This document shows positions 12,021 to 18,349 of a stretch of DNA of 64,000 nucleotides, piece after piece. Under the pieces are notes generated by a model. It was not told the origin of the DNA, searched no databases, and saw only the letters and a list, made by a program, of their open reading frames with translations. The DNA comes from Helicobacter sp. TUL (GTDB lineage: Bacteria > Campylobacterota > Campylobacteria > Campylobacterales > Helicobacteraceae): the NCBI RefSeq assembly GCF_002287135.1, contig NZ_NESU01000003.1, positions 1 through 64,000 on the forward strand. The letters run 5' to 3'. Numbering within the stretch: the first letter of the stretch is position 1; each line of letters starts with the position of its first letter. The translations under genes were made by a program, and so were the position numbers.

Positions 12021-12851
12021 ATGAAAAAAAATCTCTCATTAGTCTTACTAATGTGCGTGGGAGTGGGCATAGGTGTTGGGATTTCTGAAATATATAAACA
12101 CACACATGAACAAAAATTTATCCCCAACCAATACACTCCACAAGATTCAGATATAGATTTAGCACAAGCACAGAATCTAGAGCAATCCACTCAAGAATCC
12201 ACAGAATCTACACTAGATTCTGCCATTACACAAGATTCTACACAAGACAAGCCTATATCAGAATCTAGAGATTCTACAGAATCTACAGATCCCAATGCAC
12301 AAACTCCACAAACAAACACGATAGATTCTAAACCAGATACTGCCATTGCACAAGATATATTTTATAAAACACACCAAATTCCACAATTTCAAGAATACCC
12401 CGCAACTATGTATCAAGGACAATTTATGAAAGCTGATGAAAGCTGTATAAATTGTGAGGGTGGTCCACAAGAAGCACTAAAGCGAGGAGTTATTGATTTT
12501 GCTGGTAAGTATGCTCTCTACACACTTAAGCCAAATAATGGAGAAATAATCCTTGGTGCGGTGAATGTAGAAAATGGTGAAGTGCTAGAATTTCCTACAC
12601 TCTACAAAGAGGTAGCACCACCTTTTAACCTCAATGTGTTTGCAAAACCACAAAGCAATCTCATATGGGTGCAAGGAGTAGATTCTAAAAATAATGACAT
12701 ATATACAATAGCGGCTTATGTTTTTAAAAATGGAAGTTTTCAAAAGATTCAAAGCTTTGAGATTGGCTTTAGTGCTTCTGAAAATCTCACTCCACAACCT
12801 TTACAACAAGATTCTTCTAATTCATCTGAACAAGGTATCGTGGTCTTTTAG
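12021..12851 (+). CDS. anchored protein with Ser/Thr/Asp/Gln linker, unknown function
   Basis: 276-residue protein: short Lys-start hydrophobic segment (about 5-22) that is a signal anchor, then a low-complexity linker (about 40-115) made of Ser, Thr, Asp, Glu, Gln and Pro, then a compact C-terminal domain (about 120-260) with SCINCEGG near 142-149 (a possible disulfide or metal pair) and repeated Tyr/Phe strands. Probably displayed in the periplasm. I do not recognise the domain. The linker is encoded by eight copies of AGAWTCT within about 160 bases. Its stop codon overlaps the ruvC stop on the other strand. Confidence 0.75.
12172..12329. repeat. cluster of eight AGAWTCT motifs in a coding linker
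   Basis: AGAATCT or AGATTCT occurs at 12172, 12203, 12215, 12233, 12260, 12269, 12278 and 12323, each encoding Glu-Ser or Asp-Ser within the disordered linker. This is the densest run of the motif in the window. Confidence 0.9.
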
Positions 12852-13321
12852 GGCTGTTTTAGACGCTGTGAGTGTGTGATTGCTACAGCTATAGCATCGG
12901 TAATATCAAGGGGTTTAATCTCACCCTTGATGCGTAAAAGACGCTTTACCATAAAAGCTACTTGTGTTTTATCTGCCTTGCCATTGCCTGTGAGAGCCTT
13001 TTTGACTTGCAATGGTGTATATTCTGCAAAATTGCCAAAATCTTGCAAAATCTTTAAACTCAATGCTCCACGAAATTGAGCAAGTTTAATAACACTCTTT
13101 GGATTATAGGCATAAAACATATCTTCTATAGCCACCTCATCAATTTTATGCGTTTGTAAAATAATATCAAGCCCTTCGATAAATTCCACAATTTGGGCTT
13201 GTAAAACACGCTCTTTAATCTTAATAAATCCCGCTTCAACAAGCTTTAGCGTATTATTTGTATAACTAATCACTGCATAACCACAATTTCTTGTTCCTGG
13301 GTCTATCCCTAAAATTTGCAT
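12848..13321 (-). CDS. ruvC: Holliday-junction resolvase
   Basis: 157-residue endonuclease that resolves four-way junctions together with RuvAB. The four acidic catalytic positions are visible: Asp7 in [13 protein letters not shown], Glu in VAIEDMFYA (about 66), and the C-terminal pair in [13 protein letters not shown] (about 138-141). Length matches the family. The ATG at 13321 faces dnaA across the first DnaA-box region, and its 3' end overlaps the convergent upstream gene by 4 bases. Confidence 0.94.
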
Positions 13322-13350
13322 CTTTAATCCATTTTAAAAGTTTTTTTTTC

Positions 13351-13356
13351 TATGAT
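13351..13356 (+). promoter_or_regulatory. possible -10 box of the dnaA promoter
   Basis: TATGAT about 70 bases before the dnaA ATG and just upstream of the DnaA-box cluster. Transcription would start within the boxes, which would fit autoregulation by DnaA. No convincing -35. Confidence 0.35.
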
Positions 13357-13364
13357 TTCAGCAA

Positions 13365-13403
13365 CTTTTCACATATTTTTCACATATTTTTCCACAATCC
13401 ACA
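13365..13403 (+). other. oriC1-like cluster of DnaA boxes between ruvC and dnaA
   Basis: Four DnaA-box-like 9-mers in the same orientation: CTTTTCACA (13365-13373), TTTTTCACA (13376-13384), TTTTCCACA (13388-13396) and CAATCCACA (13395-13403). The first three are 11 to 12 bases apart, about one helical turn. The arrangement and place match the upstream half of the bipartite H. pylori origin. Confidence 0.7.
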
Positions 13404-13426
13404 GAGTGTATCAAGAAAGGCATTTT

Positions 13427-14752
13427 ATGAGTATTAATGATATATTAGAACAACTTAAAAAAGAAATATCTCAACACGAATATGATACATATTTTAAGAT
13501 TCTAGAATTCGATGAAAACGCCTCTAGAGATGATTTACTAGTCTTTTATGCACCAAATAGTATTGTGGCAGATTGGATTGAAATACACTATCTTGATAAG
13601 CTTATATCTTGTGCCCAAGAAATCACAGGTATCCCGCCAAAAATTCACATAAAAACAAAAAAACTCACAAATGTTGTGAAAAGTTTAAAAAACAATAAAA
13701 ATGCAAAAAATTCTGAATCTTCCCAACAAGCACACATCAATTATCAAGAAACTTTTGAAAACTTTGTAGTAGGGAAATCCAATCATCTTGCGTGGGATTC
13801 TTGTCAAAAAGTCGTGGAGGTCCGAGGACGCATTAATCCTTTGCTTATCTATGGTCATACCGGTGTAGGCAAAACGCATTTATTAAATGCCATTGCAAAT
13901 TCTGTGAGAGAAAAAAATGAAAAAGTGATTTTAGTTACCGCCGAACAATTTCTAAATGATTTCCAGCTACGCCTACATAATAGGACAATGGATACATTTC
14001 GCAATATTTATAGAAAATGTGATTATTTGCTAATTGATGATGTCCAATTTTTTGGAGGCAAAGATCAAATTTGTGAAGAATTTCATAATACCTTTAATGC
14101 CCTGCACCAAGAAAGAAAACAAATTGTTATGACAAGCGATCAGCCACCAAAAAAAATTCGAGGTTTAGAAGAAAGGCTGCGTTCGCGATTTGAAGGGGGA
14201 ATTGTCATAGAGATTGAAAAAACTGATTTAGATACAAAAAAAGAGATTATCCGCTCAAAATGTAATCTAAATTCTATCGTTCTTGATGATGAAACGATCA
14301 ACTTTATCGCTACCAAGCTTGATAACTCCAGACAGATTCTAGGGATTATCCAAAATATCAACCTCCAATCCAACCTAAACCCAGATGTCAAAAAAATCGA
14401 AATTGCCACAAGTGTGATGAAAACATACCAAAGAGACATCTCAGAAAATATCACAATAGATAAGATTCTCTTTTTTGTAGGCAAGGAACTTAACATTAAA
14501 CCAAGTGAAATAACCTCAAAAGGAAAAAATCAGCGTATAGCTAAAGCACGCAGAATCGCGACATACCTCACACGAAAACTTACACATAATTCTATGCCAC
14601 TCATTGCTAATGAACTTAATATGAAAGACCATAGCTCTGTAAGTAAGGCAATAAAAGCTATGGAAGAAGCTATAAAAGAAGATGAAAATCTTAAAAACAT
14701 CGTTGAAGAAATAGAAAACAACATAAAAAACGACAATATCCCACAAGTTTAA
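13427..14752 (+). CDS. dnaA: chromosomal replication initiator protein
   Basis: 441-residue AAA+ initiator. Domain I (about 1-85) begins MSINDILEQLKKEI. Domain III carries Walker A GHTGVGKTHLL (about 147-157), Walker B LLIDDVQFF and the sensor/arginine-finger segment (LRSRFEGG). The C-terminal DNA-binding domain has the signature DHSSVSKAI that reads DnaA boxes. ATG at 13427 is preceded by GAAAGG and fits known DnaA starts; the frame is open 25 codons further upstream, but that part overlaps the DnaA boxes. It is bracketed by DnaA-box clusters on both sides and followed by dnaN and gyrB. Confidence 0.96.
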   Translation: MSINDILEQLKKEISQHEYDTYFKILEFDENASRDDLLVFYAPNSIVADWIEIHYLDKLISCAQEITGIPPKIHIKTKKLTNVVKSLKNNKNAKNSESSQQAHINYQETFENFVVGKSNHLAWDSCQKVVEVRGRINPLLIYGHTGVGKTHLLNAIANSVREKNEKVILVTAEQFLNDFQLRLHNRTMDTFRNIYRKCDYLLIDDVQFFGGKDQICEEFHNTFNALHQERKQIVMTSDQPPKKIRGLEERLRSRFEGGIVIEIEKTDLDTKKEIIRSKCNLNSIVLDDETINFIATKLDNSRQILGIIQNINLQSNLNPDVKKIEIATSVMKTYQRDISENITIDKILFFVGKELNIKPSEITSKGKNQRIAKARRIATYLTRKLTHNSMPLIANELNMKDHSSVSKAIKAMEEAIKEDENLKNIVEEIENNIKNDNIPQV

Positions 14753-14775
14753 AGCAACACCAAAACAATTTTAGG

Positions 14776-14781
14776 TATAAT
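14776..14781 (+). promoter_or_regulatory. -10 box upstream of dnaN
   Basis: TATAAT in GGTATAATTTAG just after dnaA. Transcription from here toward dnaN would pass through the whole downstream DnaA-box and trio region. Confidence 0.55.
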
Positions 14782-14814
14782 TTAGGGCTTTTTTGAGTAA
14801 GAGATGGGAATAAA

Positions 14815-14940
14815 TGTGAAAAATATAACAAAACATTGTGAAATGTTTTTTACTACAAAAGTCAGTAAAATAGGCAAAAATAAAAACATTTCACATTTTC
14901 ACAAGCTCTACTACTGCTACTAAAAATTATTTACATAAAA
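14815..14940 (+). other. oriC2-like origin: inverted DnaA boxes, DnaA-trio and AT-rich unwinding region
   Basis: Boxes TGTGAAAAA (14815-14823, reverse) and TGTGAAATG (14837-14845, reverse) face CATTTCACA (14887-14895) and ATTTTCACA (14895-14903). The bases 14837-14850 and 14882-14895 form a perfect 14-bp inverted repeat. Four bases after the last box comes CTA-CTA-CTG-CTA-CTA (14908-14922), matching the DnaA-trio that loads DnaA on one strand during melting, and then an A/T-only run toward dnaN. This is the expected layout of a basal unwinding region. Confidence 0.78.
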
Positions 14941-14949
14941 GGGGATATG

Positions 14950-16014
14950 ATGAAACTTAGCATTTCAAAAACACCTTTTGAGATCATACTCTCAAACTTC
15001 CAAAGCTTCTTAGAAAAACGAGATATTTCACAAATCACTTCGCACATTTATTTTGAGTGTATCAACAATACATTGATTTTAAGAGCTACAGATTATGAAA
15101 TAGCTATTCAATCCCAAATAGAAGTTCAAATGCAAGAAGAAGGTAAAGCTACTGCAAATGGACGAGACATTTTAAATTTTATCAAAAACCTTAAAGAAGG
15201 TGATGTTACACTAGAAACACAAGATGATTTACTTGTTATCAAACAAGGACGATCAAAATCAAGTCTCCAAATGTTTAATGTGCATGAATTTCCAAATCTC
15301 CCAGAATTTTCCCAATCTCAACAAATCAATATAGAATCTCATAAATTCCTTAGTTCAATCAAAAAAATCAATTCAACTGCTGAAACAAATAATGCCAAAT
15401 TCGAATTAAATGGTGCTTTTTTAGACATCAAAGAATATTCTATAAACTTTGTAGCTACAGATACAAGACGCCTTGCTATTGTTAAATACGACACTCAAGG
15501 TATCAATACACTTTCTCTCATCATTCCTAAACGCGCTATGAATGAGATTCAAAAGCTTTTTGTCGATAACATAGAAATCTTTTTTAATGCGACATATATT
15601 ATTATCAAATCTCCAACATATCTATTCTTTAGCAAAGTTATCAATGCTAAATACCCAGATTATGAAAAAATTATCCCAAAAAGCTTTAAAAACACTCTCA
15701 AACTTCCAAAAGACAAATTTATTGAATCTATTAAGATTGTAAGTTCTTTGTCAAGCAAAATCAAAATCACACTTAATGCTAATGAGATTCTCTTTGAATC
15801 TATTAGCGATAGAAACCACAAAGCAAGCACACAAATTGATATTCAAACAGGTATACAAGAAGAATTTACATTTGGTGTAGATTCTAAAAATATCACAGAT
15901 TTCTTGGCACAAGTGGATTCAGCAGAATTTACTATGGCACTAAATGAACAAAATTCTCCATTAACTCTTATAGATAATAACTTTAGCACAATCATTATGC
16001 CTATTATTTTATAG
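14950..16014 (+). CDS. dnaN: DNA polymerase III beta subunit (sliding clamp)
   Basis: 354-residue clamp protein that tethers the replicative polymerase to DNA. It has the three repeated clamp domains of usual length, with FVATDTRRLAIV (about 167-178), a central domain typical of the family, and the C-terminal NSPLTLIDNNFSTIIMPIIL (the MPI/MP-L end that lines the clamp face). The ATG at 14950 is preferred over 14947 because it lies 5 bases after GGGG and starts MKLSISK as in relatives. Located directly after the oriC2-like region. Confidence 0.95.
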   Translation: MKLSISKTPFEIILSNFQSFLEKRDISQITSHIYFECINNTLILRATDYEIAIQSQIEVQMQEEGKATANGRDILNFIKNLKEGDVTLETQDDLLVIKQGRSKSSLQMFNVHEFPNLPEFSQSQQINIESHKFLSSIKKINSTAETNNAKFELNGAFLDIKEYSINFVATDTRRLAIVKYDTQGINTLSLIIPKRAMNEIQKLFVDNIEIFFNATYIIIKSPTYLFFSKVINAKYPDYEKIIPKSFKNTLKLPKDKFIESIKIVSSLSSKIKITLNANEILFESISDRNHKASTQIDIQTGIQEEFTFGVDSKNITDFLAQVDSAEFTMALNEQNSPLTLIDNNFSTIIMPIIL

Positions 16015-16033
16015 CATTGTAGGGAGCTAGTAA

Positions 16034-18349
<2,316 letters not shown>

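Follow-up and report, generated by a model that had tools for sequence, protein, structure and literature searches.

A predicted oriC2 unwinding unit in the dnaA-dnaN gap of a Helicobacter close to H. equorum

Genes and DnaA boxes at the locus

The locus lies in a stretch of 64,000 nucleotides from Helicobacter sp. TUL, the whole of which is called the window here, and shows the gene order ruvC-dnaA-dnaN-gyrB. The ruvC gene (12848-13321, minus strand; Pfam RuvC, E 1.7e-57) is divergent from dnaA (13427-14752, plus strand; Bac_DnaA, Bac_DnaA_C and DnaA_N domains), whose start was set from relatives, and dnaN follows on the plus strand at 14950-16014 with DNA_pol3_beta domains. Adjacent ATG codons are present at the dnaN start (14947-14950), and the second of them (14950) was chosen by alignment with 'Candidatus Helicobacter avicola', which favors it. 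The source genome is that of a Helicobacter close to H. equorum, and its DnaA is 99% identical to the H. equorum protein and 89% identical to that of H. avicola. HobA, known from H. pylori as a partner of DnaA, is also encoded in the genome and was found in none of 14 control genomes, and dnaA itself was found in all 121 genomes of the family. Just 3' of the dnaA stop codon there is a -10-like element, TATAAT (14776-14781, plus strand). Hexamers of this kind occur within the first 70 nt 3' of dnaA at 54 of 87 family loci, against 28 expected, and the one in the window suggests a possible promoter that would transcribe through oriC2 into dnaN.

Two groups of putative DnaA boxes flank dnaA. In the 105-bp gap between ruvC and dnaA, the head-to-tail plus-strand boxes CTTTTCACA (13365-13373) and TTTTTCACA (13376-13384) form an oriC1 candidate, with two TTCAC cores where 0.21 are expected (P 0.02). 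The second group is placed in the 194-bp dnaA-dnaN gap, which has a G+C content of 27% and contains four TTCAC cores against 0.39 expected (P 0.0007). The anatomy of this second group can be read directly from the DNA. Two distal boxes on the minus strand, TTTTTCACA at 14815-14823 (identical in H. equorum and H. avicola) and CATTTCACA at 14837-14845, are directed away from the DUE. They are followed by two plus-strand boxes, CATTTCACA at 14887-14895 and the DUE-proximal, R1-type box ATTTTCACA at 14895-14903, which occupy the positions of H. pylori ts1 and ts2, respectively. These two form a head-to-tail pair whose cores stand 8 bp apart, so that their 9-mers share one base (14895). Next come the 4-nt spacer AGCT (14904-14907), in the position of a GC-rich spacer, the five DnaA-trios CTA CTA CTG CTA CTA (14908-14922), and the A/T-rich part of the unwinding element, an 18-nt A/T run (AAAATTATTTACATAAAA, 14923-14940) that extends into the dnaN ribosome-binding site. 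The trios thus lie 4 nt from the proximal box and 12 nt from the upstream one, and their CTA repeats belong to the upper strand, with the plus-oriented boxes upstream and directed at them.

An earlier sequence-only reading of this DNA had proposed here a complete basal origin unit of oriC2. Box 14895-14903, the four bases, the five triplets and the A/T run are exactly as it gave them, and the predicted unit is indeed complete, with the box pair, spacer, trios and A/T run in the right place and order. To that reading can be added a distal box (14815-14823), the overlap of the two plus-strand boxes by 1 bp, and the putative oriC1 boxes at 13365-13384. One of its terms has to be corrected: the boxes within the inverted repeat described below were called facing, yet the 5'-TTCAC-3' of the left box points left and that of the right box points right. 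The four boxes form a tail-to-tail array, two minus-strand distal and two plus-strand proximal, as in other epsilonproteobacteria (PMC5043019).

Within the window, five YTR triplets come 4-6 nt after a TTCAC core at one place only, with a mean of 0.0 over 50 simulations, and pattern searches of the 1.71-Mb genome returned a single match to the strict box-plus-trio pattern. The 100 bp at 14841-14940 belong to the least stable 0.6% of the window. The cumulative GC-skew minimum, calculated over this one window, falls at 16001, around 1 kb from the unit.

Known origins and the family-wide box-trio unit

The closest characterized counterpart is oriC2 of H. pylori, which consists of the boxes c6, ts1 and ts2, a GC-rich spacer, the DnaA-trio and an A/T region (PMC8235120). 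It has been demonstrated that its opening begins 3 nt downstream of ts2 and proceeds through the trios, that trio mutants fail to open, and that the third trio is imperfect, reading 3'-GAC-5' (CTG on the upper strand) (PMC8235120). The window shares with it the tandem box pair, the short spacer, the five trios with A/T-rich DNA next to them, the identical imperfect third trio CTG, and, as a candidate, an oriC1 partner upstream of dnaA. The differences are of detail. In the H. pylori group ts1, TCATTCCAT, abuts ts2 in a 9-bp register with a 3-nt CCC spacer and the distal box runs in the same direction, whereas the two boxes of the pair in the window have complete TTCAC cores and share 1 bp in an 8-bp register, with a 4-nt spacer after them, and the distal boxes point outward. 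The overlap might prevent both plus-strand boxes from being filled simultaneously.

Likenesses extend to other bacteria. In Arcobacter butzleri, Wolinella succinogenes and Sulfurimonas denitrificans, opening takes place solely in oriC2, which is likewise located in the dnaA-dnaN gap of a ruvC-dnaA-dnaN order and shows boxes with TTCAC cores, tail-to-tail arrays and trios (PMC5043019). In agreement with this epsilonproteobacterial pattern, the unit of the window lies between dnaA and dnaN in ruvC-dnaA-dnaN-gyrB, its TTCAC core occupies box positions 4-8, and its tail-to-tail arrays include an R1-type box directed at the DUE. Footprinting in those three species showed just one DUE-proximal box, whereas the window displays a perfect tandem pair. 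The basal unwinding system (BUS) of Bacillus subtilis and other bacteria also combines tandem DnaA boxes, a short spacer and trios (PMC6669920, PMC8287927). It is recognized by three or more DnaA-trios with a DnaA box no further than 16 bp away (PMC8287927), and this arrangement is found in the window with the same polarity, the box running toward the trios and 3'-GAT-5' standing on the lower strand. The 12 bp from the upstream box to the first trio fall inside the reported BUS peak of 10-13 bp. The window departs from the BUS in having boxes of the epsilonproteobacterial TTCAC type and in their 1-bp overlap, whereas in the published program for finding a BUS the boxes are described as up to 3 bp apart.

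To place the unit within the family, dnaA and its downstream flank were surveyed in about 85 family genomes, and a credible box-trio unit was seen at 60 loci. The core-to-first-trio distance was 4-6 nt in 55 of 57 scored relatives. Allowing at most one mismatch, a second TTCAC-like core stood 7, 8 or 9 bp upstream of the first at 3, 30 and 15 of the 60 loci, while almost every other offset in the 5-40 bp range showed one at zero to two loci, the exception being 13 bp (eight loci, all in a single genus). These distance counts are approximate, because the automatic trio finder was off by some bases at a few loci (L009, L031, L032, L034, L035 and L070-L072). At least one outward-pointing distal box was present at 47 of the 60 loci. 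The box-to-trio register is common to most Helicobacteraceae genera, and the 1-bp box overlap of the 8-bp register to the source species and several sister genera. Loci of the H. pylori group read TCATTCCAT-TCATTCACG-CCC-CTA-CTA-CTG-TTA-CTA, which agrees with the published ts1, ts2, GC-rich spacer and trios. What had been described from the letters as the known DnaA-box to DnaA-trio geometry matches oriC2 of H. pylori and that of other epsilonproteobacteria.

In most of the family, the trios come directly after a tandem box pair whose cores stand 7-9 bp from each other, in the main 8-9. This supports the ts1/ts2 pair of H. pylori as a general family arrangement and predicts paired boxes in species where only one box has been footprinted.

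Two irregular loci of the H. pylori group were also noticed. In one genome (G022, locus L068) about 46 bp are apparently missing from the first 70 nt after dnaA, a loss that takes both DUE-proximal boxes (the ts1/ts2 positions) and keeps the trios and a c6-like box. This apparent deletion is either a natural test of the need for the DUE-proximal boxes or an assembly error. In another (G032, C1:319192-320470) the dnaA match is split by stops into three pieces, and sequencing or assembly errors are the probable cause.

The inverted repeat and its evolution

Within the unit, TGTGAAATGTTTTT (14837-14850) recurs as its exact reverse complement at 14882-14895 across a 31-nt loop, just as the sequence-only reading had given it. 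No other perfect 14-bp inverted repeat with a loop of at most 60 nt exists in the 64-kb window. When the 194-bp gap was simulated by a first-order Markov model, 0.035% of the trials gave such a repeat, but this comparison takes no account of both arms being copies of the same DnaA box. In fact, each arm is the box CATTTCACA with an adjoining five-base A/T tract, and the repeat is mainly two identical box copies placed tail-to-tail and extended in this way.

The same reading had raised the idea of a cruciform, and two observations could favor a structure, either a cruciform formed in supercoiled DNA or a hairpin of a dnaA-to-dnaN transcript, that tunes origin opening or dnaN expression. The segment 14830-14903 folds better than expected (RNA -14.8 kcal/mol, z -4.2; DNA z -4.3). 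In addition, the window and H. equorum differ by 16 substitutions in the gap, and in the arms only at one matched pair (14845 G/A and 14887 C/T), so that the repeat is still perfect in H. equorum. In simulations, a repeat that changes and yet stays perfect has a probability of 0.006, or 0.02 given exactly two arm changes, and both values are post hoc and come from a single species pair. Against this stands the behavior of the relatives. The boxes persist in H. avicola, but its repeat is broken and reaches 10 bp at most (MFE z -0.2); the three more distant genus members likewise retain the boxes, with no repeat longer than 8-10 bp. Judged by repeat length and fold z-scores over about 60 relatives, the perfect repeat is confined to the window and H. 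equorum. The one matched pair, in a repeat that is lost in H. avicola and others, falls short of compensatory conservation, and relatives keep the boxes rather than the repeat. Long loops, here 31 nt, and arms with only four G-C pairs are unfavorable for cruciform extrusion. No terminator-like site was found and no Rfam family matched 13200-16200; titles and abstract openings brought up no paper on a cruciform with DnaA boxes at Helicobacter oriC2. A cruciform or hairpin function is very improbable, and it was set aside, only H. equorum among about 60 relatives keeping the repeat. The comparison with other Helicobacter oriC2 sequences, which had been suggested as a check, bore out the box-trio layout as common and left the repeat to H. 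equorum.

A narrower proposal, that selection keeps the symmetry in the window/H. equorum pair as a topology-sensitive switch for the adjacent trios, acting through hairpin or cruciform pairing or through a symmetric DnaA bridge that needs identical boxes, seems to us equally doubtful. The matched change is more simply accounted for by homogenization of the two box copies. By this explanation, which we put forward tentatively and hold to be less likely than not, template switching or quasi-palindrome correction made the copies identical, the repeat is an evolutionary by-product, and its function lies solely in DnaA binding. It would account both for the matched changes and for a perfect repeat that is seen in two sister species only. 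Position 14887 is T in H. avicola as well, and the C of the window is thus probably derived; for the left arm the ancestral letter is ambiguous, and two species cannot separate homogenization from chance or structure. The proposal concerns the repeat alone and is compatible with an oriC2 identity of the unit.

Probable origin function and units remote from dnaA

Taken with its setting, the unit is very probably oriC2, the half of a bipartite chromosomal origin that unwinds, as judged by analogy with H. pylori. In vitro, a scaffold built from H. pylori boxes and trios is opened by the purified DnaA of that species, and both elements are needed (PMC8287927). Since the window has every sequence feature of the published opening systems, we infer DnaA loading, extension along the trios and opening of the A/T run. 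By the H. pylori model, DnaA would bind the outward distal boxes (14815-14823 and 14837-14845) and the tandem pair (14887-14903), from which a DnaA oligomer would be guided over the 4-nt spacer to the lower strand of the trios (14908-14922). The oligomer would then open the duplex into the A/T run, with helicase loading as the next step, and DnaA on the putative oriC1 boxes (13365-13384) would probably loop to oriC2.

It could be argued instead that the cluster titrates DnaA or regulates dnaN and that replication starts elsewhere. The over-representation in the family of the -10-like hexamer just after dnaA would fit with such a regulatory role, and in some gastric Helicobacter a similar unit is remote from dnaA. 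However, the strict box-plus-trio pattern occurs once in this genome, the skew minimum is about 1 kb away, and neither titration nor repression needs trios, which makes this alternative extremely unlikely. The unit of the window is a well-preserved, ordinary example of the one already characterized in H. pylori. It adds a cleanly predicted oriC2 from a Helicobacter other than H. pylori, with small variant features in the 1-bp box overlap and the perfect repeat limited to two species, and it leaves the general picture of bacterial initiation unchanged.

The remote units of some gastric Helicobacter imply that linkage of the unit to dnaA is not universal. In one such genome the GC skew is flat and uninformative on whether the unit is the true origin. 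In a genus that also has loci of the H. pylori type (g2), five genomes carry a box-spacer-trio unit with a DnaA-box cluster far from dnaA, near local position 1500 of the extracted loci (L103 in G007, L104 in G017, L105 in G018, L106 in G037 and L107 in G038). Reading of the ORFs placed this unit next to acpS/fliL in G007 and G037, and in G017 it adjoins a fumarase-like gene about 1 Mb from dnaA. Unit and dnaA are on different contigs in G007, G018, G037 and G038, and in the genomes of this set that were examined gyrB comes next after dnaA, without a trio unit. The remote unit may be an origin that has become separated from dnaA. A further genus (g5, L010-L020) has no trio unit downstream of dnaA; in one of its genomes (G065, L099 near 1500) a unit with an 8-bp tandem box pair immediately precedes dnaN-gyrB, and dnaA lies on a different contig.
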